From Rhizomicrobium sp. (GTDB lineage Bacteria; Pseudomonadota; Alphaproteobacteria; Micropepsales; Micropepsaceae), in NCBI GenBank assembly GCA_025451875.1, contig JANWJQ010000015.1, positions 1-35,167 of the forward strand: a stretch of 35,167 nucleotides of DNA, given 5' to 3'. The notes beneath the pieces were generated by a model. The model did no database searches. It worked only from the letters and a program-made list of their open reading frames with translations, and was not told the origin of the DNA. Position 1 is the stretch's first letter. The number at the start of each line of letters is the position of its first letter. This document shows positions 4,624-28,307 of this stretch, piece by piece. A program made the position numbers and the translations under genes.

Positions 4624-5258
4624 GGCAGAACCGGCCCAAAGGTCACACTGAGCGCATCGCGGTTGTGCAGATCGAGGCCCGCCAGCGAAATGTCCGCATA
4701 GACCTCGCAATCCCGTACCGGCTCTTCCGCCAACACGCGCTCTTCGTTGCCCAGCGTCACGAACACCCGCGCGCACCGGCCTTCATAGGTGGCGCGGTGG
4801 TCCGGATGCACCGACAACAGCACATAACCTTTGTCGGCATCATCGGGCGCAACAAAGACCTCCAGGGTCCAAATGCCGCTCTGGCTGCGACACAAGACGG
4901 CTTTGCTGCCGGTCTCGCTTGCGGCGGCCAACAGCGCGAAGGTTTCGACCGGCGGGAATGATTGCCCGCGCGGGGTCGCACTTGGCAGCCTCGCGATAAT
5001 GGCTTCCACGAGATCGTACGGCGCGATTTCCGCAGGCAGGGTTGCAAGATAGTCCATAGCCGCCACGGCATTGAGAAAATCGCCGTGCGATGCGGCAAGC
5101 CGGTCTGCAATTTGCTCGTGCCTGAATCTGTCCAGGCCGCCGTCCAGATAGACGGCCAGCTGCGCCGGCGAAATGCCGTCCCTGGCTTTGCCCCCTTCCA
5201 AGCCGTCGGACAGCAGGGCTGCTATGGCGGGATCGCGGGAAATGGGGTTTTCGGTCAC
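4620..5258 (-). CDS. Putative anti-sigma or sigma-associated protein
   Basis: This 212-residue protein begins at a GTG (5258) with GGAAAGGAG eight bases upstream. Its N-terminal 80 residues (LAVYLDGGLDRFRHEQIADRL, then FLNAVAAMDYLATLP) have the helical layout of the anti-sigma domain of zinc-finger anti-sigma proteins, but without the Cys/His ligands. No membrane helix was seen. The C-terminal half (about 100-212) is beta-rich and may be a sensor or binding domain. It lies 19 bases after the sigma gene and overlaps the Lon-like gene by 4 bases, so the three are almost surely translated together. The anti-sigma role rests mainly on gene order. Confidence 0.6.
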   Translation of the reverse strand: MTENPISRDPAIAALLSDGLEGGKARDGISPAQLAVYLDGGLDRFRHEQIADRLAASHGDFLNAVAAMDYLATLPAEIAPYDLVEAIIARLPSATPRGQSFPPVETFALLAAASETGSKAVLCRSQSGIWTLEVFVAPDDADKGYVLLSVHPDHRATYEGRCARVFVTLGNEERVLAEEPVRDCEVYADISLAGLDLHNRDALSVTFGPVLP

Positions 5259-5277
5259 GTATCAGGCTCCTTTCCCA

Positions 5278-6342
5278 TTAGACGGACTCGAGCCAGCTTT
5301 TAATCGCCGGGTGATCGGCCAAGTGGTCCTTGAGCTTCTGGAGCACCCGCTGGCGCAATCGGTAAACCTCCTCGACCGGCTGCTGCATCAGCCGCGCGAT
5401 TTCGCGGGGCGATAAGTCGTCCGTTCCCGTCAACAACAAGCGCAGATACAGCCGTTCAGCCACCGCCAGCCCGGGCGCCAGTTCGCGGATGGCTTCCGCT
5501 GCCTTGGTGAGAGCCAGGCTTTCCTCATTTGCGAGCATTGCCGCTTCCGGGGAATGGGCGGCGGACGGGATCTCCGGCGCGGCGTCCAGCGCCATTTGCC
5601 GCGTTTCGGGCTGGTAATTGGCGGGAACCGCACGATGCAGCCGGGCCAACGCCGCCGACAGTTCGGCACGGCTCACGGCCTCCCCTTGTTGTTCGAGGAC
5701 CATGCCGGCAGCGTCCGCTGTCATGCCTCGCCACCAGACTAGCCGAAACAACTTCTGATCCTGGGGCTCTAGGCGCGCGACGACGGCCGGCAGACGGCGG
5801 CGGGCGCGGAAGCTGCGGATGAAATCGACCAGCAGCCGATCCGATAAATGCAGAACAAACCCGGCGGGACTGCCATGCCCCTGGTAGGCGTTCAATCGGC
5901 GACAATTGGCGGCCAGTAATCCCGCGCAAATCTCCTGATAGGCGTCTTGCCGGGTTTCGGTCCAAGCCGGCCCCGGCAGGCGGCGTTGCACCAGCCGGCG
6001 CAGATCGTCGCCAAACAGGGCCTCGAATGCCGGCCAGCCCTTGGCGGTATCCCTAGCCACACCGCGCAGCACGTCGCGGCCCAAGAGGTCACGCACCACA
6101 AGTGCGAGAAAGGTGTCCAGACGCGTGCGGCCGTCGAACGCCCAGAGACAGGCGAAATTCTCGGCCTGGATCGCGCCTAGGACTATTTCAAACCGGGCGC
6201 GGGCGCTGGTGTCATCGCCTGTCAGGCGGCGACAGCAAGCCCAGACTGTGTCCGCCGCACGTCGGATGACGCGCGCTTGCGCATCGGGCTCGCCAGCGAG
6301 CGCCGCGCGCAACAAACTCCGATCTTCGCTGCTGTGCTCCAA
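5278..6342 (-). CDS. ECF-like RNA polymerase sigma factor with an extra N-terminal region
   Basis: The 354-residue protein ends in a region 4-like helix-turn-helix (LSPREIARLMQQPVEEVYRLRQRVLQKL, residues about 308-338) for -35 recognition. A region 2-like segment (AYQEICAGLLAANCRRL, then GFVLHLSDRLLVDFIRSFRARRR) lies near residues 133-185. A second, weaker region 2-like segment (ACLWAFDGRTRLDTFLALVVRDLL) lies near residues 63-87. It is much longer than the usual 160-200 residue ECF factor because of this duplication and a long linker. The frame opens only at a TTG (6342) without a clear binding site, so the start is uncertain. It is first gene of the 6342-3193 unit and presumably controls it and unknown targets. 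Confidence 0.7.
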   Translation of the reverse strand: MEHSSEDRSLLRAALAGEPDAQARVIRRAADTVWACCRRLTGDDTSARARFEIVLGAIQAENFACLWAFDGRTRLDTFLALVVRDLLGRDVLRGVARDTAKGWPAFEALFGDDLRRLVQRRLPGPAWTETRQDAYQEICAGLLAANCRRLNAYQGHGSPAGFVLHLSDRLLVDFIRSFRARRRLPAVVARLEPQDQKLFRLVWWRGMTADAAGMVLEQQGEAVSRAELSAALARLHRAVPANYQPETRQMALDAAPEIPSAAHSPEAAMLANEESLALTKAAEAIRELAPGLAVAERLYLRLLLTGTDDLSPREIARLMQQPVEEVYRLRQRVLQKLKDHLADHPAIKSWLESV

Positions 6343-6986: not shown

Positions 6987-7421
6987 ATGAATCGTTCAAC
7001 GATTTTTATGCTGACGTGCAGTACAGTTATCGCATTGTGCCAGCCCGCCCTCGCGATTGAAAAAACGCTCATTTGTGACAACGGCCTGCGGCCGGATCAG
7101 GTCCCGCACATCACAATGGATTTGGATGAGGCGAACAGCACGGTTACCGTCAACTATCCTGCCACAAGCATCTACTACGACTCTCTACTGAAAGATACGC
7201 CTGCGCGTTCCGTCGGTCCCGTGGCAGCAGCTTTCGACCCCAAGTCTATTGTCTTCGATCTTCGTGACCAGGAGCCCGGATTTTATAAGCACTTTACCCT
7301 GGACCGGCTGACGGGCGTACTCTTGGACTATAACAGCGTTGACGCGCCGTACGACAAGGCGCCAGCGACCGACAAAGGTGTTTGGAGCTACAATTGCCAG
7401 CTCGGCACTGCCAAATTCTGA
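6987..7421 (+). CDS. Secreted two-cysteine paralog 1 of the tandem family
   Basis: The 144-residue protein has a perfect AGGAGG five bases before the ATG and a signal peptide ending near ALA-IEK. The mature domain shows the family pattern: TLICDN, a hydrophobic/acidic stretch ITMDLDEANSTVTV, VGPVAAAFDPKSIVFDL, the motif LDRLTGVLL, a late Cys (YNCQ) and a C-terminal Phe (TAKF). The two family Cys probably pair. It gives one of the cleanest views of the family and is 12 bases from the next paralog, so the two are cotranscribed. Function is unknown; periplasmic or extracellular location is inferred. Confidence 0.85.
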   Translation: MNRSTIFMLTCSTVIALCQPALAIEKTLICDNGLRPDQVPHITMDLDEANSTVTVNYPATSIYYDSLLKDTPARSVGPVAAAFDPKSIVFDLRDQEPGFYKHFTLDRLTGVLLDYNSVDAPYDKAPATDKGVWSYNCQLGTAKF

Positions 7422-7433
7422 GGGGGGATCGTC

Positions 7434-7859
7434 ATGGCCAAACATCTTGCGACTTCCAGAATCGCACAATGTCTTTTGGGGGTCGCACTCTTATTTGGAA
7501 GTGCTGCGTCCGCGTCGGCGGATCAACTTATTTTGGTTTGTCGCTCCAATGTCCTGCGAGCCCAGCAAGACGGCAGCACCGGCTATGACGACAGTTACAA
7601 GATTTATGTCGATACCACCGCGCAAACCGAGCACACAGACAACTATCCGGCGCCCTTTCCTGTCGCCATCGACAGTCAGGCTATTGCGGGACACTATCAA
7701 AATCCAGTCTTTCCGAATAGCGCCACCTTTACCCGCATAGATCGCACGACCGGCGACTATGAATTTCGGCAATGCGACGGCAGCCAATGTGGGCAACCGC
7801 CTGCGTCTTGGGTCCTGACCGACAAGGGTCATTGCGAAAAAGGCGAACAGCGGTTTTGA
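7434..7859 (+). CDS. Secreted paralog 2 of the tandem family (divergent, extra cysteines)
   Basis: This 141-residue protein begins with the shared 5' cassette (MAKHLATSRIAQC...) and a signal peptide ending near ASA-DQ. It keeps LILVC at the mature start, IDRTTGDYEF in place of IDRLTG, a late Cys (GHCEK) and the C-terminal Phe (QRF). It differs by a pair of extra Cys (QCDGSQC) after the DRxTG motif and by a poorly matching middle. The binding site GGGGGGA precedes the ATG by about 6 bases. Extra disulfide bonding is likely. Function unknown. Confidence 0.85.
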   Translation: MAKHLATSRIAQCLLGVALLFGSAASASADQLILVCRSNVLRAQQDGSTGYDDSYKIYVDTTAQTEHTDNYPAPFPVAIDSQAIAGHYQNPVFPNSATFTRIDRTTGDYEFRQCDGSQCGQPPASWVLTDKGHCEKGEQRF

Positions 7860-7895
7860 ACGACTGCCCATTTGGGGAACGTCGGAGAGCTCATT

Positions 7896-7928
7896 ATGAC
7901 CAAACTCGCGGCGGCACGGGCATTTTGA
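7896..7928 (+). pseudogene. Truncated leader remnant of a family paralog
   Basis: An ATG with a GGAG upstream opens an 11-codon frame, MTKLAAARAF then TGA. This matches the first codons of the paralogs at 7434, 9269, 9688 and 10089 (M-x-K-H/R-L-A-A-S). Nothing of the mature domain follows; the unrelated gene at 7942 starts 13 bases on. It looks like a copy erased after the leader. Confidence 0.55.
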
Positions 7929-7941
7929 GAGGAGCTTGATC

Positions 7942-8220
7942 ATGCGTCGGAAATTTAAGGGGCTGGCACTGATGCCAGCCGCCGCACTGATCGGTGCGCT
8001 GATCCTGCTCGCGCTGCCTACCTCCGCCAACGCCTATACGCTGAGTGGCGACGGCTGCAACGGCAATGGCAATGAATGCAAGGTCTGGTGCAACAACGGT
8101 TCGCTGGCCGGCTCAATGCATTGGAATGGGACGGTGTGGACGGATGGAGACAAATGGGACGCCAACAAGGATACCGAGGCCAAGAAAATCTGTGCTGCCA
8201 ACGGGACCGCCTGCGTCTAG
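7942..8220 (+). CDS. Small secreted cysteine-rich protein
   Basis: The ATG at 7942 (after GAGAGGAG) gives a 92-residue protein; an in-frame TTG six bases earlier is less likely. Residues 1-30 form a signal peptide (ALIGALILLALPTSANA-YT). The mature part of about 62 residues has five Cys (DGC, NEC, VWC, KIC and TAC) and is rich in Asn, Gly and Trp. It does not belong to the DRxTG family and interrupts its array. A small disulfide-stabilised exported protein is likely; the odd Cys number leaves one free or bridging to a partner. Function unknown. Confidence 0.8.
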   Translation: MRRKFKGLALMPAAALIGALILLALPTSANAYTLSGDGCNGNGNECKVWCNNGSLAGSMHWNGTVWTDGDKWDANKDTEAKKICAANGTACV

Positions 8221-8256
8221 CATTTGCGTCAAGCACTTTGATTACGGGGACTCGAC

Positions 8257-8640
8257 ATGAAGTGGGCCACTTCACTTGCGTTTCTGGGAATGATCGCGTT
8301 TCCGACGGCTGGCATGGCCGATACGACCACCCTTGTGTGCAACCTGTCCAACCGAGTCGGTACAGCCGAAGATGAACCCACGACGATCGAATTGAACGAG
8401 GCGCAAAGCTCGGTTGTCGTTCACTTCGGTCAAAATCACTACACTGTACCCAATTATCAGACGGAAAGGGCCGTCTCCGTTGGACCTGTGCCGGCGGTAT
8501 TCGGTGCCAATACAATTTCTTTCTCCCTTCCCTACCCAGTTTATGGGGACCCGTATGTCCTCAATCGCCTGACTGGCTTTCTCTCCAATACAACTAGCGC
8601 CGGAAATTTTACCTGCCACGCGGTCCAGAAGCAGTTTTGA
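8257..8640 (+). CDS. Secreted two-cysteine paralog 3 of the tandem family
   Basis: This 127-residue protein has a short signal peptide (cleavage near GMA-DTT), then TTLVCNL, TIELNEAQSSVVVHF, SVGPVPAVFGANTISFSL, the motif LNRLTGFL (Asn for Asp), a late Cys (FTCHA) and the C-terminal end QKQF. It is close to the 6987 and 9269 proteins in the central segment. The start does not carry the shared 5' cassette, so it was copied with a different leader or has lost it. The stop is followed at once by the cassette of the 8661 gene. Confidence 0.85.
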   Translation: MKWATSLAFLGMIAFPTAGMADTTTLVCNLSNRVGTAEDEPTTIELNEAQSSVVVHFGQNHYTVPNYQTERAVSVGPVPAVFGANTISFSLPYPVYGDPYVLNRLTGFLSNTTSAGNFTCHAVQKQF

Positions 8641-8660
8641 ACATCATTGGGGGATTTGTT

Positions 8661-9230
8661 ATGGCCAACCGTCTCGCGGTTTCCGGAACTCACGCCATCG
8701 CTGAGTTAGCTCGTCGTATGAGCGGCGGGGCGAAGGGACATATCAGGCCACTCCTTACAAGAATCGTGATGATCGTTTTTTGCGCAATGGCGAATGTTGC
8801 TCCGGGAGCGGCGCAATCACAAACCGATAATTTGATTGTGCCCGGAGTGCGTGTGGGACCCGTTACCCTAGGTATGACAGATGTCGATCTCTATAAAATG
8901 CTTGGTGATCCCGCCCGGACGGATGTCACTTCAGACGGTGCAAGAATTCACTATGTGTATTCTTCGCTCGACGTGGGTGTGGACAGGGATTCCCATATAG
9001 TAGTTGCGGTTGAAACCCATGATCCGTCTTACGCCACTGCCGAAGGAATCAAGTTCGGATCATCAAGCCTGGCGCTAATGGTCGCAAAGCTCGGACCACA
9101 AGAGGCGGGTTCCTGCGGTCCCCCTGACCTTTGTGAATACACGACCTCCAACGGCCTCCATGTGGGACTCGATAGCAGAGGGTGCGTCAGGTACCTAACG
9201 ATCGTCAAAGAGGGATTTGGCGCGTATTGA
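8661..9230 (+). CDS. Exported protein with a SmpA/BamE-like repeat fold, behind a family 5' cassette
   Basis: The ATG at 8661 sits in the same cassette (TTGGGGGATTTGTTATGGCC) as the paralogs, giving 189 residues. The first 9 residues (MANRLAVSG) match the family leader, then the protein diverges. A second hydrophobic segment (IVMIVFCAMANVAPGAAQ) looks like its own signal peptide, so the native start may have been the ATG of MSGGAKG. The mature part has VGPVTLGMTDVDLYKMLGDP and later AEGIKFGSS, the pattern of SmpA/BamE-type beta-alpha modules. It has no DRxTG motif. A probable case of cassette capture by an unrelated gene; function unknown. Confidence 0.7.
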   Translation: MANRLAVSGTHAIAELARRMSGGAKGHIRPLLTRIVMIVFCAMANVAPGAAQSQTDNLIVPGVRVGPVTLGMTDVDLYKMLGDPARTDVTSDGARIHYVYSSLDVGVDRDSHIVVAVETHDPSYATAEGIKFGSSSLALMVAKLGPQEAGSCGPPDLCEYTTSNGLHVGLDSRGCVRYLTIVKEGFGAY

Positions 9231-9268
9231 TAATAAACATCTTGGATTTCGGTGAACGGGGAATTGTC

Positions 9269-9667
9269 ATGGTCAAACGTCTGGCGGCTTCTGGAATCGC
9301 ACCATGCTTTTTGGGACTGGTTGTCCTGGTATCGGCCAGTCCTGCAGCGCTAGCCGATCCGACGACACTTATATGCGACACAACGTCGAGCAACGCCGAC
9401 GGACCCGGCACCGTCGAGCTGAATGAGGCCGATGGTGCCGTCACTCTGTACGGTCCTGCGTTTCACTACCCTACAGGCGAACACTTTCCGGGCGGACTGA
9501 TGGGCAAGTACGCTGCCAAATTTGATTCCAAGACAATTACCTTCGTAGGCCCCCCAACCATGGACACTGGAGATGCCGGCGAAAAGATAACGATCGATCG
9601 CCTGACCGGAATGTTCACGCAGAATGGCTCTACTTGGACCTGCCATGTCGGCAAAACGCAATTCTGA
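9269..9667 (+). CDS. Secreted two-cysteine paralog 4 of the tandem family
   Basis: The ATG at 9269 follows the cassette GGGGAATTGTC and gives 132 residues; upstream in-frame starts lie in the previous gene. The signal peptide (MVKRLAASGIAPCFLG...) ends near ALA-DPT. Family landmarks are TTLICDT, TVELNEADGAVTLY, AKFDSKTITF, ITIDRLTGMF, WTCHVG and the end KTQF. It is most like the next gene downstream in leader and C-terminus, which points to recent duplication. Function unknown. Confidence 0.85.
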   Translation: MVKRLAASGIAPCFLGLVVLVSASPAALADPTTLICDTTSSNADGPGTVELNEADGAVTLYGPAFHYPTGEHFPGGLMGKYAAKFDSKTITFVGPPTMDTGDAGEKITIDRLTGMFTQNGSTWTCHVGKTQF

Positions 9668-9687
9668 ACATCAATGGGGGAATTGTC

Positions 9688-10068
9688 ATGGCCAGACATC
9701 TCGCGGCTTCCGGAATCGCACATTGCTTTTTGGGAATCGCAATCCTGGCAATGTCCTGTCAGGCGGTGCTGGCCGATACGGTCACGCTTATCTGCGATAA
9801 CCCCTATCACCCGGACAATCCGCCGTTCACCCTTGAGCTAGATCAGGCACAGGGGACAGTGACGCAAACTTTTTCTGCAACTCAGTACTCGCCCGCAGGC
9901 TCGAGCAAATACGCCGCGACATTCGACGCCCGAGAAATAAAATACACCATTGGCGATTTCGCTTATGCGATAGATCGCGTAACGGGCAACCTGACGGCCA
10001 CTTCCAATCCAGGCAATCCAAGAGTCGTCATGAATTTTCCTTGCCATGTCGGCAAAACGCAATTCTGA
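9688..10068 (+). CDS. Secreted two-cysteine paralog 5 of the tandem family
   Basis: The ATG at 9688 follows the cassette CAATGGGGGAATTGTC and gives 126 residues with a signal peptide ending near LA-DTV. It has VTLICDN, LELDQAQGTVTQTF, ATFDAREIKY, YAIDRVTGNL, a late Cys (FPCHVG) and KTQF at the end. The last 7 residues and the intergenic bases after the stop are nearly identical to those of the 9269 gene. Function unknown. Confidence 0.85.
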   Translation: MARHLAASGIAHCFLGIAILAMSCQAVLADTVTLICDNPYHPDNPPFTLELDQAQGTVTQTFSATQYSPAGSSKYAATFDAREIKYTIGDFAYAIDRVTGNLTATSNPGNPRVVMNFPCHVGKTQF

Positions 10069-10088
10069 ACGTCAATGGGGGAATTGTC

Positions 10089-10223
10089 ATGACCAAACAT
10101 CTTGACGTTTCGGGAGGCGCCGGAACCCTCACAGTTACTACCGTGGCTGAATCCGAAGGCTTTCGTCGCGTAACCCAAATGGAGGTCTGTACGCAAGTTC
10201 CTGCACCACAGACAAAGTTTTGA
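10089..10223 (+). pseudogene. Internally deleted family paralog (44 codons)
   Basis: The cassette and first codons (MTKHLDVSG) are intact, and the frame ends with a Cys and a family-like C-terminus (MEVCTQVPAPQTKF). The signal-peptide core, the first Cys, the LDEA segment and the DRxTG motif are all missing. With no export signal it cannot work like its neighbours, although a 44-residue peptide could still be made from the intact binding site. It is best read as a deletion remnant. Confidence 0.6.
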
Positions 10224-10299
10224 GAGCGGAGATCTGTCGGCATAATACCGCTTTCCGAAACAACGGACGAAACGCGTCGCAACAAGAAGGGGTATTGCA

Positions 10300-10746
10300 A
10301 TGAGAGTCGCAGCACTGTTCTTCGCTTTCGGGCTCGCAATCGCAGGAACATTGGGGGCAGCGCAGGCGGCACAGGTGCGTCTGCTTTGTCGGACGGCTCC
10401 GTCAATGTCAGAGCATATTTCTGCCGACAGCCCGCCGACCATTGAATTAGACGACCAAAAAATGACTGCCACGATTCATATGCCGGCCGAACACGATATA
10501 GCTACCGGCAGCAGCGGCCCAATAACTCCGTTTACGATCGGTCCTTTTCCAGCCACTTTCACAGCGGACCTGATTACAGTTGTTGAGCCACAAGGAAGCC
10601 CGCACGCAGCTGGGACGTGTTGGATGATCTCGCGCTTAACCGGGGAAGTGCATTGGGACTACCGTTCGAGCTCTTGTTCCGAAGATGAAAGTTCGCACGA
10701 CGCATGGATGGAGTGGACCTGCTCGCCGGCTAAAGCGCAGTTCTGA
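10300..10746 (+). CDS. Secreted paralog 6 of the tandem family (four cysteines)
   Basis: The 148-residue protein has its own signal peptide (MRVAALFFAFGLAIAGTLG, cleavage near AQA-AQ) rather than the shared cassette, and a binding site AAGAAGGGG. Landmarks are VRLLCRT, PTIELDDQKMTATIHM, IGPFPATFTADLITVV, ISRLTGEVHWD (Ser for Asp), WTCSP and the end KAQF. It carries an additional Cys pair (GTCWM and SSSCSE) flanking the RLTG motif, so a second disulfide across that motif is likely. Function unknown. Confidence 0.85.
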   Translation: MRVAALFFAFGLAIAGTLGAAQAAQVRLLCRTAPSMSEHISADSPPTIELDDQKMTATIHMPAEHDIATGSSGPITPFTIGPFPATFTADLITVVEPQGSPHAAGTCWMISRLTGEVHWDYRSSSCSEDESSHDAWMEWTCSPAKAQF

Positions 10747-10775
10747 GAAATTTTGCGATGTGCGAAGGAGAAAAA

Positions 10776-11129
10776 ATGAACCGCTATATCAGTCTTTTTT
10801 TCGGTAGCTCGCTTCTGTCGATCGCCCTGACCGTCCCGGCACTTGCCGAAAAAGTCACCCTCGCATGCTCATACGGCCCAGGATTTGTGACTACTTATTT
10901 GACGATCGATACTGATGCAAAAACTGTGAAAGATCCTGTAGGCACACATCCCGCAGAAATAACGGACGGTGCTGTAACTTGGACCATGCCCGCGGACTTC
11001 GCTGGCTGGCATGTGCCCAACATCTATGATCGACAAACAGGCCAGATAACGAGTGGGTGGATGGTGTATGACGGAGAAAAAAAGGAAATGGACCCTGTGC
11101 CCTGCGTTAGAGCACAGTCTCCGTTTTAA
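10776..11129 (+). CDS. Secreted two-cysteine paralog 7 of the tandem family
   Basis: The ATG at 10776 is preceded by GAAGGAG and gives 117 residues, the shortest intact member. The signal peptide ends near ALA-EKV. It keeps VTLACSY, YLTIDTDAKTVKD, IYDRQTGQI, a late Cys (VPCVRA) and the C-terminal Phe (QSPF). The central part is shortened and reads AEITDGAVTWTMP, which resembles the outlying member at 1587 (ITDERVEWSF). This links the two loci as one family. Function unknown. Confidence 0.85.
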   Translation: MNRYISLFFGSSLLSIALTVPALAEKVTLACSYGPGFVTTYLTIDTDAKTVKDPVGTHPAEITDGAVTWTMPADFAGWHVPNIYDRQTGQITSGWMVYDGEKKEMDPVPCVRAQSPF

Positions 11130-11576: not shown

Positions 11577-14500
11577 ATGGGGTCGGGGATGCTGGAAAGC
11601 TTTGTCTCGTACGCGCTTGCGGCTGCCATCGTAATCGGCTTCATCGTGTGGCGCGAACGGCGCAAACAGAAGGCCGCTGTCGAAAAGGCTCCCAGCGAAT
11701 TGGAGAGCGTGGGCGGTCCGCTGCAGCGTTTGACCGGGTCGATAGAGACCTTTGCGCGCAAGACTGTGCACCCGAGAGAATTGCTCGATTGTCCTGAATT
11801 CCGCGAAGCCGTGACGCTCCTCAAGCAAGATAACGTGAGCATCGATACAGTACGGCAATATGCGATGACGGGAAACGTCTATCTCGCCTCCGCCGCATTC
11901 GAGGCCCTGACGACAAGATCGGAACGGCAGTCGTTGTTCAACGCGATCATGATGCATTTTCGAAATCTCGAGCCCGACGTCATACATTACGCACTTCGAT
12001 TCTTCACGAGTTTCGATGCGCGGCCACCGGTCGGAGGACCGGTGGCGTTGGCCGAGGCTTGGTGGGGTTCGCGCGTGACGCTCGCGGACAGCTTTCGCGA
12101 CTATTTTTCGGCGCGCGAGAAGCTCGGCGATGCAGCGGAATTCGGCACGTATCTCGATTGGAGTGCCGCTTCCAAGCCGGCGATCATCGACGCCTTTCTG
12201 TCCTACATAGACCACCCGTACGCGCGCACGTTGCGCGATCAGCTTACACAATGGCGGGGATCTCGCGTCGACTCCAGTTTTCTTAATTCATTCGGCCGCT
12301 TCTGGGCCCAGACTTCGGAAGAGGCACTCGTCACACCGAAACCCTGGAGAGAACTAGTGGATCGTGCGGAACAAGCAGTTCTTGCCTTTCCGCCGCGTTC
12401 AGTTCTGGTTACGGGCGGTCCCCGCACCGGTAAGACGTCGTTTCTCAAGATTCTCGGTGAACGGCTAATGGTCGATGGCTGGCGCGTGTTTGAAGCGAGC
12501 GCCGCCGATGTGATGGCGGGCCAGATCTATTTCGGCGAATTGGAGGGGCGTATCCGCAATCTTGTGGCCGAGCTCGATGCGGGCAAGCGTGTGGCCTGGT
12601 ATGCTGGAAATATTCTTCAGCTCGCGGAAAGCGGTACGCATCGCGGACAATCGGCAAGCGTCTTCGACCAGATCCTTCCGGCGGTGATTGCAGGCCGTCT
12701 CGTCATCTTTGCTGAAGACAGCCCCGAAGCTGTCAGCCGGCTGTTCCAATCGCGTCCATCGTTACGTACCCAGATGGAAGTCTACCGGCTCGATCCCTTC
12801 AGCGCCGAAGAGTTCAGCGACTTTCTCGAGCGTGCGGCCCGGCAAATCGAGTTCATCCGTGACAAAATGATCGGCGAAGACGCCATCACCGCGTGCCTGC
12901 AGCTGTCGCAGCAATATCTCGGCGGCACGCATTTGGCCGGGATCGGTGTCGATCTGCTGAAACGCTCGGTACAAAATGCAGCCGAAGAATACCTCGTAAC
13001 GGCGGACCATGTGCTCATGGCCGTGTCGCAGATCAGCGGCATGCCCCAAGCGATAATTGACGACAAGGAGAAGATCGATCTGGCGAGCGTGCGCCACTTC
13101 TTCAGCTCCCGTTTGATCGGCCAGGACGAGGCGATCTCGGCGGTGGTGGATCGTATCGCCATGCTAAAGGGGGGGCTCGTCGATCCCCACCGTCCGGTAG
13201 GCGTCTTTTTGTTTGCCGGGCCGACCGGAACCGGCAAGACCGAACTTGCCAAAACTCTGGCCGAATACCTATTTAGCTCGCCCGAACGCATGACCCGCCT
13301 GGACATGAGCGAATTCCAGACCCCGGATTCGACTGTTAAGATCGTTGGCGAGCGTGGTTATTCCGCAACGGACTCTCTGACGGCGCGCATCCGCAAGCAG
13401 CCCTTCTCGGTGGTGTTGCTCGATGAATTTGAAAAGGCTCACGCCAACATATGGGACCTGTTTCTTCAGGTCTTTGACGACGGTCGATTATCGGACGCAA
13501 ACGGCCACGCGGTCGATTTCCGCCATACGATCATCGTCCTCACCTCCAATCTCGGCGCGACCGGCCATCAGAGCGCGGATGTCGGCTTCATGCACAAGAA
13601 AGGCGCCTATGGCGAGGAGCAGGTCCTGCGTTCGATCTCAAGAACCTTCCGCCCCGAATTCATCAACAGGCTGGACAAGATCGTGGTGTTCAAGCCGCTC
13701 TCGCGTGAGGTGATACGCGAGATTCTTCACAAGGAATTGCGCCAGATCCTGGATCGCCGCGGTCTTCGAAATCGCGACTGGGCCGTGGAATGGGAGTCCA
13801 CCGCAATCGAATTTCTGCTCGACCGGGGCTTTTCCCCGGAGATGGGCGCCCGCCCCCTCAAGCGTGCGATTGATCAACATCTTTTGGCGCCACTGGCGGC
13901 GACTTTGGTTGAGCACCGGTTCCCCGAAGGAGATCAGTTCCTTTTCGTGCGCAGCAATGGCAAGGCCATCGAAGTTGAATTCGTCGATCCCGACGCTCCG
14001 ATGCAGGCACCCGGCGACGCGGATGGGGCGGAGCAGAACGCGCCTCTCGAGGATCCTGTCTCGCTGGCAGCCATGATCTTGCAGCCCAGCGGTGGAGCGC
14101 ACGAGCGCGCGGCTCTTGAAGCGAGTTTTGAGGCACTCGAAACCACGCTCGCCTCGCCGGATTGGATTACGCTCAAGGACCGATTGCTCCAGCAGGCCTC
14201 CGCCGCTGATATCTGGTCGCGGCCGGATCGTCACGCGCTGTTCGCGCGCATCGCGGTGATGGATAGCGTCGAGGAAGCCGCGCGGACGGCGGACCGTCTT
14301 CATCGACGCCTGACGTCTCGCGGCACGCAGCCCTCTCGTGCATCGCGCGAGCTTGTCGGGCGCCTTGCGCTCCAACTCCACGTGATCGGAGAGGGTATCA
14401 CTGACGTGCGCACGGAAGCACCGGCAGATGTGGTGATCGCCGTCGAACCGGTATTAGACGCCGGTGGCGAGGCTGGACTGAGTGAGGAATGGTGCGGGCG

Positions 14501-14921
14501 CCTGGCGCGGATGTATCGCCAATGGGCAGAACGCCGTCGAATGCAGTTCGAAGACATGACGCCGCCTTCAAACGACAGAGATGCACTACTGCATGTGAAC
14601 GGCTTTGGCGCCTTCCGCACACTCGAAAACGAGGCAGGGTTGCATGTGTTGGAGGATGCGGTAACCGGGCTGCGCAGCGTTGCACGGGTCAAGATCACTC
14701 GCGGTCCACAAGAAGAGCCGCGCGGCCATGAAGCCTATCGAACTTATTCGGCCCTCCTCGCGCTCGCGGACGACCCTATCTCCATTGTCCGCCGTTACCG
14801 CGAAAAACCTGCGCCGTTGGTGCGCGATGCGCGTGGCGGTTGGCGCACCGGCCGGTTCGAAGCCGTTCTCTCTGGAGACTTTGATCTTTTTGGACATGTG
14901 AGAGTGTCAAGCACCGATTGA
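11577..14921 (+). CDS. Membrane-anchored ClpB-like AAA+ protein fused to a release factor 2-like domain lacking GGQ
   Basis: The 1114-residue protein has an N-terminal membrane helix (about 9-24). A first AAA+ module has Walker A GGPRTGKTS near residue 280, but its Walker B position (VAWYAGNILQL) lacks the acidic pair. A second, Clp-type module is complete: GPTGTGKTE near 548, VVLLDEFEKAH near 612 and FRPEFINRLDKIVVF near 690, then the D2 small domain. The ClpB middle coiled coil is absent. Residues about 840-1114 resemble RF2: a helical N-domain, LARMYRQWAERRRMQFED, NGFGAFRTLENEAGLHVLE, and a tail VRDARGGWRTGRFEAVLSGD. The GGQ catalytic domain and SPF codon-reading motif are missing. A ribosome-linked unfoldase is a plausible inference. 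ATG 11589 is an alternative start. Confidence 0.85.
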   Translation: MGSGMLESFVSYALAAAIVIGFIVWRERRKQKAAVEKAPSELESVGGPLQRLTGSIETFARKTVHPRELLDCPEFREAVTLLKQDNVSIDTVRQYAMTGNVYLASAAFEALTTRSERQSLFNAIMMHFRNLEPDVIHYALRFFTSFDARPPVGGPVALAEAWWGSRVTLADSFRDYFSAREKLGDAAEFGTYLDWSAASKPAIIDAFLSYIDHPYARTLRDQLTQWRGSRVDSSFLNSFGRFWAQTSEEALVTPKPWRELVDRAEQAVLAFPPRSVLVTGGPRTGKTSFLKILGERLMVDGWRVFEASAADVMAGQIYFGELEGRIRNLVAELDAGKRVAWYAGNILQLAESGTHRGQSASVFDQILPAVIAGRLVIFAEDSPEAVSRLFQSRPSLRTQMEVYRLDPFSAEEFSDFLERAARQIEFIRDKMIGEDAITACLQLSQQYLGGTHLAGIGVDLLKRSVQNAAEEYLVTADHVLMAVSQISGMPQAIIDDKEKIDLASVRHFFSSRLIGQDEAISAVVDRIAMLKGGLVDPHRPVGVFLFAGPTGTGKTELAKTLAEYLFSSPERMTRLDMSEFQTPDSTVKIVGERGYSATDSLTARIRKQPFSVVLLDEFEKAHANIWDLFLQVFDDGRLSDANGHAVDFRHTIIVLTSNLGATGHQSADVGFMHKKGAYGEEQVLRSISRTFRPEFINRLDKIVVFKPLSREVIREILHKELRQILDRRGLRNRDWAVEWESTAIEFLLDRGFSPEMGARPLKRAIDQHLLAPLAATLVEHRFPEGDQFLFVRSNGKAIEVEFVDPDAPMQAPGDADGAEQNAPLEDPVSLAAMILQPSGGAHERAALEASFEALETTLASPDWITLKDRLLQQASAADIWSRPDRHALFARIAVMDSVEEAARTADRLHRRLTSRGTQPSRASRELVGRLALQLHVIGEGITDVRTEAPADVVIAVEPVLDAGGEAGLSEEWCGRLARMYRQWAERRRMQFEDMTPPSNDRDALLHVNGFGAFRTLENEAGLHVLEDAVTGLRSVARVKITRGPQEEPRGHEAYRTYSALLALADDPISIVRRYREKPAPLVRDARGGWRTGRFEAVLSGDFDLFGHVRVSSTD

Positions 14922-14958: not shown

Positions 14959-15429
14959 ATGGCGACGAGTTCCGACGATTTGGAAAAGCGTCAAACCGAG
15001 CTCACCGCCGCGCTCCTAAGCGCTGCCCGGGACGGACTGATCGAACCTGTACATTCGCTGCTTGGTCGTGGCGCACCAATAAATGCCCATGATCGCGCCG
15101 GCCGGACAGCCGTTATGTGGGCGGCGACCAACCGGCAATTCGCGGTGGCTACGCTCCTGCTCGACCGGGGGGCAATCGTCGATGCCCTGGCGCTGGCTCA
15201 GTTCGACGAATGGCTATGCTGGCTCGATGCACAATCCGAGCAGGCCTATGAGAAAATGTGCGATGCGACCAATAGCACCGCGGCTACGGGCCACTATTCC
15301 AACGCAAAAGAGTTTCTGCACGATGCAATATCCCTCGCACGCCGGCTCAAGCAGCAGAAGGCCGAAGCGCGACTGAAGACCAAACTAGATCACATCAAAG
15401 CCGTTTTCCGGACTCAGTTTCCGGCTTGA
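14959..15429 (+). CDS. Ankyrin-repeat protein
   Basis: This 156-residue protein begins with TTGGAGAAA before the ATG and lies 37 bases after the AAA+ gene, probably in the same transcript. Residues about 15-80 hold two ankyrin repeats: LLSAARDGLIEPVHSLLGRG then AGRTAVMWAATNRQFAVATL, each followed by the loop typical of the fold. The C-terminal half is helical and charged, ending in a basic coiled-coil-like stretch (SLARRLKQQKAEARLKTKLD). There is no signal peptide, so it is cytoplasmic. It could present clients or a partner to the AAA+ protein, an idea based only on gene order. Confidence 0.8.
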   Translation: MATSSDDLEKRQTELTAALLSAARDGLIEPVHSLLGRGAPINAHDRAGRTAVMWAATNRQFAVATLLLDRGAIVDALALAQFDEWLCWLDAQSEQAYEKMCDATNSTAATGHYSNAKEFLHDAISLARRLKQQKAEARLKTKLDHIKAVFRTQFPA

Positions 15430-16967: not shown

Positions 16968-18209
16968 TCACTCAACGGACCGGCATGTCTCGAGCCCTCT
17001 TTTCATAGCAAGCACTGAGAATCGAGCCGACCAGATCCGCGCCGTGTTGTCGGCTGATGCCGTGACGATGCATCTACCATTGGGCGAATAAAAGGCTGCG
17101 TTGACGAAACTGTTGTGTCCCGAAAGAACCGCGATCTGAACGCCGGTGGCGGCGTCCCAAATACGCGCCGATTTGTCGTCTGATGCGGTCAGCACGCGCA
17201 TGCCGTCAGGCGAATAGACAACAGACTCCACGAAGTTGTTATGCCCAACCAGAATTTCGAGGCAGCGGCCAGTGATGGCATCCCAGATGCGCACGGTGCC
17301 ATCAAATGACGCGGTCGCGATGCGCGCGCTGTTTGGCGAAAAGGCCGCGGAGCTGACCACGTTCGAGTGCCCGGACAGCATTAGGAGCGCCATGCCCGTG
17401 TCGGCGTCCCAGAGCCGTGCCGTCTTGTCGTCCGAGGTCGTGACGATGACTTTCCCGTCCCGCGAATAGGCGGCGAAAATCACATGATCCCGGTGGCCCG
17501 CGAGCACAGTGAGTTGCCGTCCCGTCGCCGCATCCCAGATACGCGCCGTATCGTCGTCCGACACGGTGACGACCCGGCGCCCGTCCGGCGAGAATATCGC
17601 CGACCAGACGCGATCGCGGTGACCGGACAGTACTGCCAGCGGAGCGCCTGTCGCCGCGTTCCAGATGCGTGCGGTTTTATCCAGCGAGGCAGTCACAATG
17701 CGGGCGCCATCCGCGGAATATGCCGCCGTCTCCACGATGCCATGGTGTCCGGCGAGCACCGCGTGTTGCTTTCCCGTGGCCGCATCCCAGATGCGGGCCG
17801 TATTGTCGGCCGAGCTGGTAACGACGTACCTGCCGTCGGGCGAAAAGGCGGCCGAAGTTACATAGTCTTTGTGTCCCGACAATACAGCGCGCTCCGCCCC
17901 CGTCGCCGCGTTCCAGACCCGCGCGGTTCTGTCCTGCGAAGCCGTGACGATCCATTTTCCATCCGGCGAATAGGCCCCAGACCAGACAGCCGCCTTGTGA
18001 CCTCGGAGCAGGGAAAGCACCGTGCCATCGATGGGCACGTCCGGAATCCGATCCGCTCCCGGGCGAGACTCGGCTTGCTTTATCGTTGCAGCGAACGATG
18101 GCCGGCTCTCGCATTGCGAACCAAACACCAGAAGCGGGATGATGAAGAGGCCGGCGGGTGGGTTCCGCATCCTCGCGCCGGCGCGCTCAAGAACTTGCAG
18201 GCACCGCAT
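16968..18209 (-). CDS. Exported or membrane-anchored WD40-repeat protein (eight repeats)
   Basis: Starting at the ATG at 18209 (TAATG overlap with the upstream stop, GAAGGG before it) the protein has 413 residues; an ATG at 18170 is the alternative. A hydrophobic N-terminal segment (AGLFIIPLLVFG) suggests export or anchoring. Eight WD40 blades follow, each of the form L-x-GH...V..A..SPDG..IVTAS.D.TARIWDAATG, covering nearly all the rest. A seven- or eight-bladed propeller for protein binding is expected. The repeats are very similar to each other at protein level, which points to recent internal duplication or gene conversion. It is coupled to the membrane protein gene upstream. No catalytic domain is attached, which is unusual for bacterial WD40 proteins. 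Confidence 0.85.
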   Translation of the reverse strand: MRCLQVLERAGARMRNPPAGLFIIPLLVFGSQCESRPSFAATIKQAESRPGADRIPDVPIDGTVLSLLRGHKAAVWSGAYSPDGKWIVTASQDRTARVWNAATGAERAVLSGHKDYVTSAAFSPDGRYVVTSSADNTARIWDAATGKQHAVLAGHHGIVETAAYSADGARIVTASLDKTARIWNAATGAPLAVLSGHRDRVWSAIFSPDGRRVVTVSDDDTARIWDAATGRQLTVLAGHRDHVIFAAYSRDGKVIVTTSDDKTARLWDADTGMALLMLSGHSNVVSSAAFSPNSARIATASFDGTVRIWDAITGRCLEILVGHNNFVESVVYSPDGMRVLTASDDKSARIWDAATGVQIAVLSGHNSFVNAAFYSPNGRCIVTASADNTARIWSARFSVLAMKRGLETCRSVE

Positions 18210-19585
18210 TATCGCTCGGCCCTTCGTTTCGAAATGGGCGAATCCAGCGTGAGATAGAACAGCGAAATCAGCGCCGCGACATCCAGAAAGTACAGGTAGC
18301 GGTAGTCGCAGGCGATGGAAATAAAGAAAAACGTCAGTGTGAAGATCAGGCCACCCGTCAGCATCGCCGCGATGACGATGTCCGCATCGCGGCGGCGGTA
18401 CAGCAGAAACGCAAGCGCGCCTACCGCAAGCAGAGCCGACGCGGCGTGCGATAACAGCGGCGTGCCCAAGAATGTCGCAGCATAGTCCTTCAACGCCATG
18501 TCGCGGGCATCCATGCGCTCGGGAATGCCCAGCGCCCGCAACAGTCCAGGCGGACCATCGACGCCGGCCATATACGGCACGCATGCGCTAAGATTTGGCG
18601 CGAGAAATACCCAGCGAAATATCTCCGCGCGCGTTTTCAGGTACAAACCGGTGTGTCGAAAGGCAAGATCGCGCCATTGCTCCGCGATCGTCTCCGACTT
18701 CGCGTTGCCAAGGGCAGTAAGCAGCGATTTCGAATTCGACAGCGTATCGTTGCGCTCCGCCGAATACAGCGAAACTCCATTCGCCCGAAGATTCTTCGTC
18801 AGCGAAGGATCGCTGGCTGCCATGACATCCAGTCTGTAACCGGGCGAGGATTTCAACGCGCCCACGAGATCGTAGGTCTGCAGAAGTCGAAACTGGGCCG
18901 CTGGGCCGGTATGCCCGTGAACCCGGGGGCCGAGCAACGCCTGCGCGGCCAGTGCAACGATGGCCGCAACCGCAATTCCGGCCAACCCATACAACAAGCC
19001 GTCCCGCCCTGAGGACCGCCGTGCCGTGATCCCCGCTAATGCGACGACCGCCGGCGGCAGCAGAACGATCCCGTTTTGTCGAACGAGGGCGGCGGCCGAC
19101 AAAAGGAAAAAGCACAGGGTGAGAAGCGCGAAGCGCGGGCGCGGCAACCGCCAATAGACCGTCGCATTGACGAGACAGACATGGCCCGCAACCGCCAGGG
19201 CCGCGAACAACACATCCTTCCAGACGATGCCCGGATAGAGAAAAAATTGCGGCGATGCGATGCAAACAAAGGCGACGAGCACGGTCGCCCAATTTTTTTT
19301 GCCGGGTAGCCTCGACAGCGACAGCAACCCGCCGAAGAGCAACAGCGTATCGAATGTCACAAACAATCCGGTTCCCGGCAGAACCGCGTCAAAGATGCCG
19401 AGCAGCCAGGACATCGCGTAGGGATGCCAGTTCGCATAAACGGCCTGACGGCCCTCTAGAAGCTGGACTTCCGAGTCGTACGAGAGATGACCGGGCCAGT
19501 TGGCAATCAAGCACAAGACAAGCCCGAGACCGATGACGAGAGTCGCAAGCCAAGCCATCGATGGTATGCGGGCGTTAAGCAACAC
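18209..19585 (-). CDS. Polytopic membrane protein, GT-C glycosyltransferase-like
   Basis: The 458-residue protein starts at a GTG (19585) after GGGGAAAGG. It has about ten to twelve membrane helices. After the first helix the loop reads NWPGHLSYDSEVQLLEG, followed by NWHP. This acidic first loop with a later His-Pro is typical of lipid-linked GT-C glycosyltransferases. A large non-membrane part (about 215-330) lies between helix blocks. It may transfer sugar from a polyprenyl carrier to an exported acceptor, but substrate and acceptor are unknown. The stop overlaps the WD40 start by one base, so the two proteins are made together. Confidence 0.7.
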   Translation of the reverse strand: MLLNARIPSMAWLATLVIGLGLVLCLIANWPGHLSYDSEVQLLEGRQAVYANWHPYAMSWLLGIFDAVLPGTGLFVTFDTLLLFGGLLSLSRLPGKKNWATVLVAFVCIASPQFFLYPGIVWKDVLFAALAVAGHVCLVNATVYWRLPRPRFALLTLCFFLLSAAALVRQNGIVLLPPAVVALAGITARRSSGRDGLLYGLAGIAVAAIVALAAQALLGPRVHGHTGPAAQFRLLQTYDLVGALKSSPGYRLDVMAASDPSLTKNLRANGVSLYSAERNDTLSNSKSLLTALGNAKSETIAEQWRDLAFRHTGLYLKTRAEIFRWVFLAPNLSACVPYMAGVDGPPGLLRALGIPERMDARDMALKDYAATFLGTPLLSHAASALLAVGALAFLLYRRRDADIVIAAMLTGGLIFTLTFFFISIACDYRYLYFLDVAALISLFYLTLDSPISKRRAER

Positions 19586-19922
19586 TCACCTTTCCCCGGC
19601 ACGGCGACGGCGACTCCTGTTCATCCAGCTTGAAGCATTCGCACGGTTCAGTCTGCATCGATGATTGGGAGGCCACCGATAACCCCGCATATCGCGGGAC
19701 CCAAGCGCTTCGGTGGTTGGCAAACATCAACGAACGAGGATTCCATAGCAGCCTCAACGCGTTACCAGAGCAACCGCGATCGGAGCCGGGTGCGGATGCC
19801 GTGGGCGCTCGTTGAACATCGCAAACTCTGTTAGCCTTTTGCCATTGTCCGTCCGCGTGTCGCGCCGCATTTCGATATTTCAGACATCGATTTCATTCAG
19901 CCTTTCCGCAAAGGAGAAACCA
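19586..19922. other. Divergent promoter region of the RiPP-like locus
   Basis: The stretch separates the minus-strand membrane protein gene from the plus-strand precursor gene and must hold both promoters. Upstream in-frame starts for the precursor (for example at 19812) have no binding site. No other gene is seen. Confidence 0.5.
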
Positions 19923-20219
19923 ATGGCCGATATTCCGCCGCCGCCGCCAAAGCCGGCGATAGTCGAAATAGATAAGACCAAACAGCTAGACATGGCCGAA
20001 CGCATCAAGGCGATCCGGGTATCGTTCGCGAAGACCCGCGAATCCTTGCAGTCAGGTGCTGCGGCGGCGGGCATCCGCGTCGCGCAGGACGATTTCAACC
20101 AGGCCCTGCCGTTCCAGAACTTCAATCAGTTCACGAACTTCAACGACTTCACCAATTTCAACAACTTCACGAACTTCAACGACTTCACCAATTTCAACAA
20201 TTTCGGCAATGGCGGGTGA
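19923..20219 (+). CDS. RiPP-like precursor peptide with Phe-x-Asn/Asp repeats
   Basis: The start at 19923 is fixed by AAGGAG six bases upstream and gives 98 residues. Residues 1-9 are MADIPPPPP. A charged helical leader follows (DKTKQLDMAERIKAIRVSFAKT), with Ala/Gly-rich spacing. The last 35 or so residues are a putative core: LPFQNFNQ, then two copies of FTNFNDFTNFNN, then FGNGG. Every third residue is Phe and the third position of each triplet is Asn, Asp or Gln. Radical SAM cyclophane (triceptide) systems modify aromatic-x-x triplets of this kind, which fits the maturase gene 21 bases downstream. No signal peptide or membrane helix is present. The leader/core boundary is inferred. Confidence 0.85.
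   Translation: MADIPPPPPKPAIVEIDKTKQLDMAERIKAIRVSFAKTRESLQSGAAAAGIRVAQDDFNQALPFQNFNQFTNFNDFTNFNNFTNFNDFTNFNNFGNGG
20130..20201 (+). repeat. Tandem 36-bp repeat in the precursor core
   Basis: Two adjacent 36-bp units (20130-20165 and 20166-20201) are identical except for the last base (C or T, both AAC/AAT for Asn). Each encodes FTNFNDFTNFNN. Each unit also contains two 18-bp half-units differing at a few bases. The near-identity shows recent duplication of a coding block that sets core length. Confidence 0.9.
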
Positions 20220-20240
20220 TGCGCAACGCTGGACTCGTTC

Positions 20241-22193
20241 ATGTCTTCCGCTATCGAACGTCCTCTTGCCCGGCCGGGTAACACGATTGAAACGGCACCA
20301 CTCGGGCTGCTCGTTCTGCAGCCCACGACTTTTTGCAACATCGACTGCCGCTATTGCTATCTGAGCCAGCGATCTGAAAACCACCGGATGAGCCCACACA
20401 CCGTGCAGGCGGTCGCGCGGTTCGTCCGCGATATACCTCTGCGCGACCAACGGTTGTCCGTCGTATGGCATGCCGGCGAACCGCTGGCCGCGCCGGTGGC
20501 GTTTTATGAAACTGCATTCCGGACTCTGAAAGCCGAAGCCGGTCCGATCGAATTCGAACATCATATCCAGACCAACGCGACGTTGATCAACGACGAATGG
20601 TGCGCGCTCTTCAAGCAATGGGGGGTGCATGTCGGCGTCAGCATCGATGGTCCCAAGGCGATAAACGACGCCCATCGCGTCGATCGCGCCAATCGTGGAA
20701 CGTTCGATCGCGTGATGCGCGGCATCGCAAAGCTCCGCGAACACGGCATACCGTTCACTGTGATCGGCGTTCTGACACAGGATGCCTTGAAAGCACCTGA
20801 GGACTTCTGGGCGTTTTTCGAGACACTGGGCGCCACACAAGTCGCCTTCAACGTGGAAGAACAGGAAGGCATCAACGCCTTGTCGACGCTTACGGAAGAC
20901 GGCTATGGGGATTTTCGCCGGTTCGTCGAGCGCATCGCTGAACTGCGGCGCAGCGGCCCGAAGCTCCGCCAACGGGAATTCGACGGCATGCGGGGACATC
21001 TAACGGCGCCGCCCGGTAGCGACCTGCAACGCGCCGACAACATGCCCGGCGCAATCATCAACATAGACTTCGAAGGCAATGTGACGACGTTTTCACCGGA
21101 ATTGCTGGGCGCCGAACACGACGACTACGGAACATTTCACTGGGGCAACGTGCACCGCGATGATTGGCAGGGCGTCGTGTCTCATCCGAACTTTCGCAAA
21201 GCCTATGCCGACATATTGGCCGGCGTTGCGCTCTGCCGGGAGACATGCGCGTATTTTTCCGTCTGTGGCGGCGGCAACCCCAGCAACAAGCTCACCGAAC
21301 TCGGCACCTTTGCCGGGACGGAAACCCAATTCTGCAAGCTGCATATACAGACCTTCGCTGACGTCGTGATCGAGGAGCTTGAGCGCGAACTATCATCCGG
21401 AGATTTGAAGGAGGACGTCTTGCCGCAAAGCAATCCTGTGAACACCGGCGCATCGAAGCCCGCAAAAGAGGTGGACATCTATTTGGCGGGCGCCGGCATC
21501 GCGTTTCCCGCGCATCTGACGATCGAAACCGTGGAAATCCTCACGGCCTGCAAGCGGATCTGCACCAACCTGCAGGAATCGATGCTGACGGGATTGCCAC
21601 AGGATCTGAAGGACAAATGCATCAGCCTCTGGCCGCTCTATCAGGACGGCCGGATTCGCAGCGAAAACTACAATGACGTGTTCAACGCCATCGTCGAAAT
21701 CGCTGAGGTCGAGCGGCCGATCGCCTGGCTGACGCCCGGACATCCGGTGATATTCGACAGCGTCACGACCTCGCTTCTGAACGCGGGAAAGTTACGGGGA
21801 TGGAACGTTCGGGTCATTCCAGCGATATCTTCCATCGACACGATGCTTGCCGAGCTGGGCTTCGATCCCGCCCACGGAATGCTGATCCATGAGGCGACCG
21901 GTCTTGTGAGGCGGCGCATTCCGCTGCACCGCACGGTCGCTGCGATGCTCCTGCAGCCGGCAGTGTTCGACGTCAACGTTGCGATTATCGACGCGGGGAG
22001 CAAAGGTCCAGATCTGTCGCCGCTGCGGGACTACATTGCGGAATTTCATGCGCCGGATCACAAATGCGCGTTCATCCGGTCTTCATCCGGCTTTGGCGAG
22101 CCCGATCTTGTGACCTGGACAGCCCTGCGCGATCTTACGAACGTGCCTTACGACAGGATCGCCGGCTCGACATTGTTCGTTCCGCCCGCCTGA
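20241..22193 (+). CDS. Radical SAM/SPASM-like maturase fused to a tetrapyrrole methylase-like (borosin-type) domain
   Basis: This 650-residue protein has two enzymes in one chain. Residues about 20-250 form a radical SAM domain with the cluster motif C32-x3-C36-x2-C39 (CNIDCRYCYL), then HAGEPL and SIDGP motifs typical of peptide maturases. A Cys-rich segment near 332-345 (CRETCAYFSVCGGG) and a later Cys (TQFCKLH) resemble the SPASM auxiliary-cluster region. Residues about 410-600 match the TP-methylase fold of borosin N-methyltransferases: IYLAGAGIAFPAHLTIETVE, WPLYQDGRIRSENY, TPGHPVIF and AELGFDPAHGMLIHEA. Predicted roles are cyclophane-type cross-linking and backbone N-methylation of the precursor. 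The start at 20241 is the first ATG and lacks a strong binding site. Confidence 0.85.
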   Translation: MSSAIERPLARPGNTIETAPLGLLVLQPTTFCNIDCRYCYLSQRSENHRMSPHTVQAVARFVRDIPLRDQRLSVVWHAGEPLAAPVAFYETAFRTLKAEAGPIEFEHHIQTNATLINDEWCALFKQWGVHVGVSIDGPKAINDAHRVDRANRGTFDRVMRGIAKLREHGIPFTVIGVLTQDALKAPEDFWAFFETLGATQVAFNVEEQEGINALSTLTEDGYGDFRRFVERIAELRRSGPKLRQREFDGMRGHLTAPPGSDLQRADNMPGAIINIDFEGNVTTFSPELLGAEHDDYGTFHWGNVHRDDWQGVVSHPNFRKAYADILAGVALCRETCAYFSVCGGGNPSNKLTELGTFAGTETQFCKLHIQTFADVVIEELERELSSGDLKEDVLPQSNPVNTGASKPAKEVDIYLAGAGIAFPAHLTIETVEILTACKRICTNLQESMLTGLPQDLKDKCISLWPLYQDGRIRSENYNDVFNAIVEIAEVERPIAWLTPGHPVIFDSVTTSLLNAGKLRGWNVRVIPAISSIDTMLAELGFDPAHGMLIHEATGLVRRRIPLHRTVAAMLLQPAVFDVNVAIIDAGSKGPDLSPLRDYIAEFHAPDHKCAFIRSSSGFGEPDLVTWTALRDLTNVPYDRIAGSTLFVPPA

Positions 22194-22208
22194 CGCGGAG
22201 CCGAAGCG

Positions 22209-28283: not shown

Positions 28284-28307
28284 ATGCTGGCCAAGCAGGA
28301 GTCCTTA

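Follow-up and report, generated by a model that had tools for sequence, protein, structure and literature searches.

The open reading frame at positions 11577-14921 (plus strand) of a 35,167-nt stretch from Rhizomicrobium sp. (assembly GCA_025451875.1, contig JANWJQ010000015.1; the whole stretch is hereafter called the window) almost certainly encodes a real fusion of a ClpA/ClpB-type motor with a tail derived from release factor 2 (RF2). The frame begins with ATG and is open over 1114 codons, and its coordinates and frame are exact. The product starts with a predicted membrane anchor and a helical region peculiar to the family, continues with two HSP100 AAA+ modules and is completed by an RF2 that is missing its GGQ domain (residues ~839-1106). 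The component parts are known, and the novelty is their combination; the proteins that share it are a rare yet conserved bacterial family, real and maintained, which is apparently undescribed so far, as no relevant description of an AAA/Clp-release factor fusion was found in the open-access literature searched. The features of the gene are as follows.

11577..14921, plus strand: whole gene (1114 aa), for a predicted membrane-anchored ATPase of the HSP100 type that ends in an RF2-like region (ORF and Pfam/profile matches)
11592..11648, plus strand: predicted anchor, a hydrophobic helix at the N-terminus (residues 6-24) with Arg/Lys after it; most of the protein predicted cytosolic (Kyte-Doolittle)
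11649..12341, plus strand: family-specific helical region, residues 25-255, without a Pfam family
12342..13046, plus strand: AAA+ module D1, residues 256-490 (ClpA profile match 281-778; PDB ClpA match 259-786)
12414..12437, plus strand: D1 Walker A GGPRTGKT, intact
12516..12551, plus strand: D1 pore loop AGQIYFGELEGR, aromatic residue kept
12591..12614, plus strand: D1 Walker B position VAWYAGNI, acidic pair lost
13047..13991, plus strand: AAA+ module D2 with D2-small, residues 491-805 (Pfam, profile and PDB matches, residue inspection)
13218..13241, plus strand: D2 Walker A GPTGTGKT, intact
13338..13376, plus strand: place of D2 pore loop 1, which is 3-4 residues shorter and has lost GYVG
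13410..13427, plus strand: D2 Walker B VVLLDE, intact
13668..13670, plus strand: D2 arginine finger R698
13845..13853, plus strand: D2 sensor 2 GAR, residues 757-759
13992..14090, plus strand: variable linker, residues 806-838
14091..14411, plus strand: RF2 domain-1-like helical region, residues 839-945 (profile-profile, model, structure alignment)
14412..14696, plus strand: RF2 domain-2-like region (PCRF), residues 946-1040, with the GTE tip, SPF and HTSF lost (Pfam, profile-profile)
14697..14780, plus strand: variable junction in place of RF2's GGQ domain (deleted), residues 1041-1068
14781..14894, plus strand: RF2 C-terminal (domain 4) motif RRY..PLVRD..GWRTGR..VL.GDFDL, residues 1069-1106

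Homology of the tail to RF2 was supported by several comparisons. Pfam matched the frame with AAA_2 (residues 539-702, 3e-43), ClpB_D2-small (708-787) and the release-factor domain PCRF (949-1024, 30.8 bits against a cut-off of 24), and PCRF exceeded the gathering cut-off in all eight fusion members tested. When the C-terminal 284 residues were searched alone, they matched prfB/RF2 in two stretches at 6e-10 and RF1 at just 1e-3, and a single-sequence search of the PDB returned RF2 chains at 8e-6. A profile of nine members was aligned by hhalign with 28 RF2s at 98.4% probability (E = 7.6e-15). The 220 aligned columns begin at the FW motif of RF2 domain 1, reach the C-terminal VKD...VLDGDLD and are broken once, by a gap of ~110 residues at the GGQ domain; five column-shuffled control profiles reached P = 0.04 or worse. 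A model of the tail (pLDDT 77.7, pTM 0.73), built from an alignment of the window sequence, its relative in Alphaproteobacteria bacterium REEB62 and seven true RF2s, was superimposed on E. coli RF2 (1gqe) with Z = 19.9 (265 of 276 residues paired at an rmsd of 5.1, reaching from residue 6 to residue 364 of RF2) and matched RF2 in Foldseek at 1e-11; the presence of true RF2s in its alignment makes this support for homology not fully independent. In the model, domains 1, 2 and 4 are present in the order and fold of RF2. AlphaFold run on two family sequences alone gave a pLDDT of 39 and was left out of the fold claims. An initial annotation of the locus had described a ClpB-like AAA+ protein whose C-terminal third is an RF2 without its catalytic domain, and had named a profile-profile search, a structure prediction aligned on RF2 and a better match to another family as the points on which this should turn. 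The fusion and the RF2 identity of its tail stand on Pfam, profile-profile and predicted-fold evidence, with RF2 the best match in the Pfam, profile and structure comparisons, but the part resembling RF2 takes up the last quarter of the protein and not a third.

The GGQ motif is absent from every member, its domain being represented by a deletion of ~110 residues, and column-by-column comparison with RF2 found that the elements that read the stop codon are also gone from the tail, namely the GGTE tip, HRLVR-SPFD and RRHTSF; the loss of GGQ and SPF had been claimed in the initial annotation and was seen in the members. The RF2 core residues are retained (W880, W972, MY979-980, WA983-984, G1009, E1019, H1023, R1072, Y1074, D1084, VL1097-1098, G1100 and D1103), and eighteen positions are invariant in the fusion family but unlike RF2, among them R885, D896, R911, R987, G1011, V1024, E1026, R1073, W1089, R1090 and R1093. 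As judged from sequence and model, the tail is best called a neofunctionalised pseudo-release factor, which has lost decoding and peptide release while keeping the fold.

Fusion loci were found in independent genomes, 11 in total, from five genera and two proteobacterial classes; nine are full-length and two are cut by contig ends. The fusion in REEB62 (JAGWZW010000014.1), from the same genus as the window, is 74% identical, that in a genome of another alphaproteobacterial family (G389) is 51% identical, and three genera of family f217, from another class of the phylum, carry fusions that are about 37-39% identical and are called gamma members here as a shorthand, the class name not being given by the data. 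The distribution is sparse: 2 of 69 species in the window genus, 2 of 385 in the class sample and 8 of 233 in f217, with 6 of 8 species in one f217 genus. The class figure was taken after removal of G113, a candidate fourth alphaproteobacterial member that proved to be a true RF2, with both SPF and GGQ present, truncated where its contig stops. A contig scan with the window sequence alone found no fusion relative, and with an alignment it recovered REEB62 as the sole fusion. No relative of the tail was detected in viral contigs, phages or plasmids at the thresholds used. A profile of the N-terminal region and D1 found no case of this part without the RF2-like tail in 378 genomes; the 1e-25 matches outside the family covered only the D1 part and lay in open frames of 750-904 aa, a size that ClpA and ClpB share.

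These data bear on whether the fusion could be a chance resemblance, an assembly chimera or a decaying clpB-prfB fusion, a suspicion to which the state of the window genome (an 82%-complete draft of 2.98 Mb in 172 contigs) might give rise. The same architecture recurs with open frames in the 11 loci, dN/dS between the two congeners comes to about 0.18 for the RF2-like part and 0.04 for D2, and the host carries a separate full-length RF2 of 357 aa with SPF and GGQ. The probability of such an artefact or relic is therefore negligible, the reading being refuted by the loci from independent genomes, which together with the low dN/dS indicate that the family is being maintained and is neither decaying nor confined to one genome.

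In the motor, D2 looks catalytically intact and is predicted to be the sole working ring. Walker A and B, the sensor 1 Asn, the arginine finger and sensor 2 are kept in D2 of all nine full-length members, in agreement with the earlier impression of an active-looking D2, and the Walker B acidic pair of D1 is intact in none of the nine, with one acidic residue left there in some. The ClpB label of the initial annotation holds for D2, for which ClpB is the best match, but across both rings the best match is ClpA (profile, residues 281-778; PDB ClpA, 259-786). The aromatic pore loop GYVG is absent from D2 of all nine members, and standard threading is disfavoured because of this loss. The earlier proposal that the protein may extract or unfold nascent or stalled proteins is weakened by it as regards the pull-through step. 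The state of D2 also bears on another possible role, as a membrane-tethered partner of ClpP, in which the tail would pick stalled nascent proteins and the AAA rings would feed them to the protease. An IGL/F-like tripeptide occurs at the ClpP-loop position of the alphaproteobacterial members (VGF, LGF and LGF), so that a residual ClpP loop is plausible in these members only; the gamma members have PGF, PAF or MGF at this position, and with the D2 pore loop devoid of GYVG we consider a ClpP partnership very improbable. Matches reported by PADLOC were generic AAA matches to the D2 ATPase, and no defence system was found.

A hydrophobic helix starts every member, with a Kyte-Doolittle mean of 2.09 in the window protein and a range of 1.75-2.49 over all nine; it is followed by basic residues in most of them, which by the positive-inside rule would place the ATPase in the cytosol. 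The N-terminal anchor suggested in the initial annotation is thus predicted in nine of nine members. Taken together, the profile matches and the tail model show a protein with the predicted architecture of an inner-membrane-anchored two-ring HSP100 ATPase bearing an appendage from RF2 domains 1, 2 and 4.

We propose that the tail would serve for docking or as an adaptor, delivering a client to the motor at the membrane. The motor would then remodel this client through ATP-driven movement, in which the D1 pore loops would grip and D2 would supply the drive. The likeliest client would be translational, a ribosome or nascent-chain complex held via domain 1 at the L11/GTPase-associated region, in a ribosome contact that would not involve codon reading in the A site. 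That the tail recruits such a client is the reading we favour, tentatively. Ribosome docking was put forward in the initial annotation; it is possible through domain 1, and docking in the A site in the manner of RF2 appears unlikely, less likely than had been assumed, because the residues that contact the decoding centre, where superdomain 2/4 of RF2 reads the codon (PMC6742477), are lost, so that the tail, if it touches the ribosome at all, must do so in another way than RF2. Domain 1 of RF1 contacts the N-terminal domain of L11 and RF3 (PMC3677378). It is also the least conserved domain of release factors (PMC1586002), and its retention is therefore no proof of L11 binding.

The retained domain 1, as the place where RF3 and L11 meet RF1 (PMC3677378), is also consistent with a tail that acts on the partners of RF2 (RF3, PrmC, ArfA, L11) as a decoy or a regulator, adjusting termination or rescue at the membrane as part of a stress regulon. 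In REEB62, the fusion is the third gene of a same-strand run, directly after a sigma-like and a zf-HC2 anti-sigma-like gene, and in the window the fusion has, 5-7 kb away on the opposite strand, a gene related to that sigma and a possible anti-sigma gene, which would fit such a regulon. Against this, the GGQ motif, the site of action of PrmC, is absent from the tail, and the sigma link is found in one genus only; the sigma occurs in 4 of 69 congeners, including both fusion carriers, and its presence in two congeners without the fusion rejects it as an obligate partner. We regard a decoy or regulator as improbable. The region 3193-6342 (minus strand) of the window holds the divergent sigma-like gene, the possible anti-sigma gene and an ORF weakly matching a CARF-Lon family model, in which a segment, GNVQRIDGIAAK, resembles the Lon protease domain.

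Speaking against a translational client, no translation genes were recognised among the fusion neighbourhoods inspected, where the recurrent neighbours are the sigma/anti-sigma pair, RiPP enzymes, peptidases and a MerR-TipAS regulator; in the gamma genus, these include an M12 metallopeptidase, an M19 dipeptidase and the MerR-TipAS regulator. RiPP enzymes lie within 9 kb of the fusion in three loci, those of the window, REEB62 and genome G1015. The window gene is a GrrM/OscB cyclophane radical SAM maturase (390 bits against a cut-off of 310). Its region, 19812-23057 (plus strand), comprises a small ORF ending in NFNQFTNFNDFTNFNNF repeats, the likely precursor, ahead of the maturase, which has a TP_methylase domain fused at its C-terminus, and a 282-aa ORF after it that has no Pfam or NCBIfam match. 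In REEB62, a thiopeptide-type LanB (1051 aa) and a LanC (454 aa) are encoded upstream of the fusion (L073:2285-6774, minus strand), and in G1015 a HopA1 domain is fused to a LanM-type cyclase domain (LanM C-half) about 2.7 kb downstream of it (L062:6476-8809, plus strand). The nine fusion genomes contain seven LanC genes, two of which lie near the fusion. From the number of genes and the size of the genomes, about 0.025 would be expected there; this statistic was picked after seeing the data.

This setting is relevant to the possibility that the RF2 fold now serves to bind proteins, as an adaptor that makes no ribosome contact, with a client such as a peptide precursor or another secondary-metabolism or stress client. 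We consider such an adaptor quite possible: decoding and catalytic residues have been lost and new invariants gained, the RiPP-modifying genes and the LanC excess lie close to the fusion, and the distribution is patchy and accessory. The three RiPP classes differ, however, no RiPP genes were seen near the remaining full fusion loci, and the proximity statistic is post hoc; the RiPP association is a lead only.

Several other genes surround the fusion in the window. An ankyrin-repeat ORF (14959-15429, plus strand) follows the fusion gene after 37 nt, in the same orientation, and is possibly co-transcribed with it; an ankyrin-like gene is likewise found downstream of the fusion in L062 by eye. 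Further downstream, a WD40-repeat beta-propeller protein with eight WD40 stretches is encoded at 16968-18584 (minus strand). About six small secreted proteins, each with a signal peptide and a short Cys-containing sequence, are encoded in tandem at 6987-11129 (plus strand), and several of them end in KTQF or AKF-like tails. An ORF at 28284-29798 (plus strand) contains HPFADGNGR, a Fic AMP-transferase motif recognised by eye.

Compared with known systems, the fusion falls outside the RF2, ClpA and ClpB classes because the defining features of each were tested and found wanting. Like RF2 (prfB, TIGR00020; PCRF PF03462 and RF-1 PF00472), the tail has the fold and order of domains 1, 2 and 4, the core residues and the C-terminal VKD...VLDGD motif; unlike RF2, it is without the GGQ domain, SPF, the GTE tip and HTSF, is joined to an ATPase and falls below the NCBIfam cut-off for prfB (38.6 against 370 bits). 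Like ClpA and ClpB (HSP100, TIGR02639/TIGR03346), the motor has two AAA+ modules, the D2 active-site residues and ClpB_D2-small, and it shares with ClpA the module spacing, with no insertion of ClpB size in D1. It differs from both in the predicted membrane anchor, the unrelated N-terminal region, the RF2-like tail, the loss of the D1 Walker B and D2 GYVG motifs, and scores below the NCBIfam equivalog cut-offs (309 of 1232 bits for ClpB, 299 of 993 bits for ClpA). In FtsH and other membrane-anchored AAA+ proteases, an N-terminal helix tethers an AAA+ motor to the membrane; unlike FtsH, the fusion has no protease domain, its AAA modules are of the HSP100 type and it carries the RF2-like tail.

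It is conceivable, if somewhat doubtful, that these proteins constitute a new class of membrane-bound HSP100 machine associated with ribosomes or peptide biosynthesis, with a retired release factor as the targeting subunit; if so, translation or ribosomally made peptides would be coupled to an inner-membrane ATPase. Should the tail still bind ribosomes, the fusion would provide a direct physical link between the ribosome and an HSP100 ATPase, and should it not, the fusion would plainly illustrate how a universal fold of translation is recycled as an adaptor. Few translation proteins are as conserved as the release factors, and to our knowledge their known derivatives, such as PrfH, retain the GGQ domain. 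PrfH acts on damaged ribosomes. A close parallel is this protein (RFH), likewise a release-factor relative with one domain missing and a repurposed role (PMC1586002), to which the tail model gave a weak structural match (Z 8.6). PrfH keeps GGQ and is without domain 1 (PMC1586002), whereas the fusion, as its mirror image, keeps domain 1 and loses GGQ. By a route opposite to that of PrfH, a conserved lineage has kept the body of a release factor, dropped decoding and catalysis, and joined what remained to a motor that remodels proteins at the membrane.
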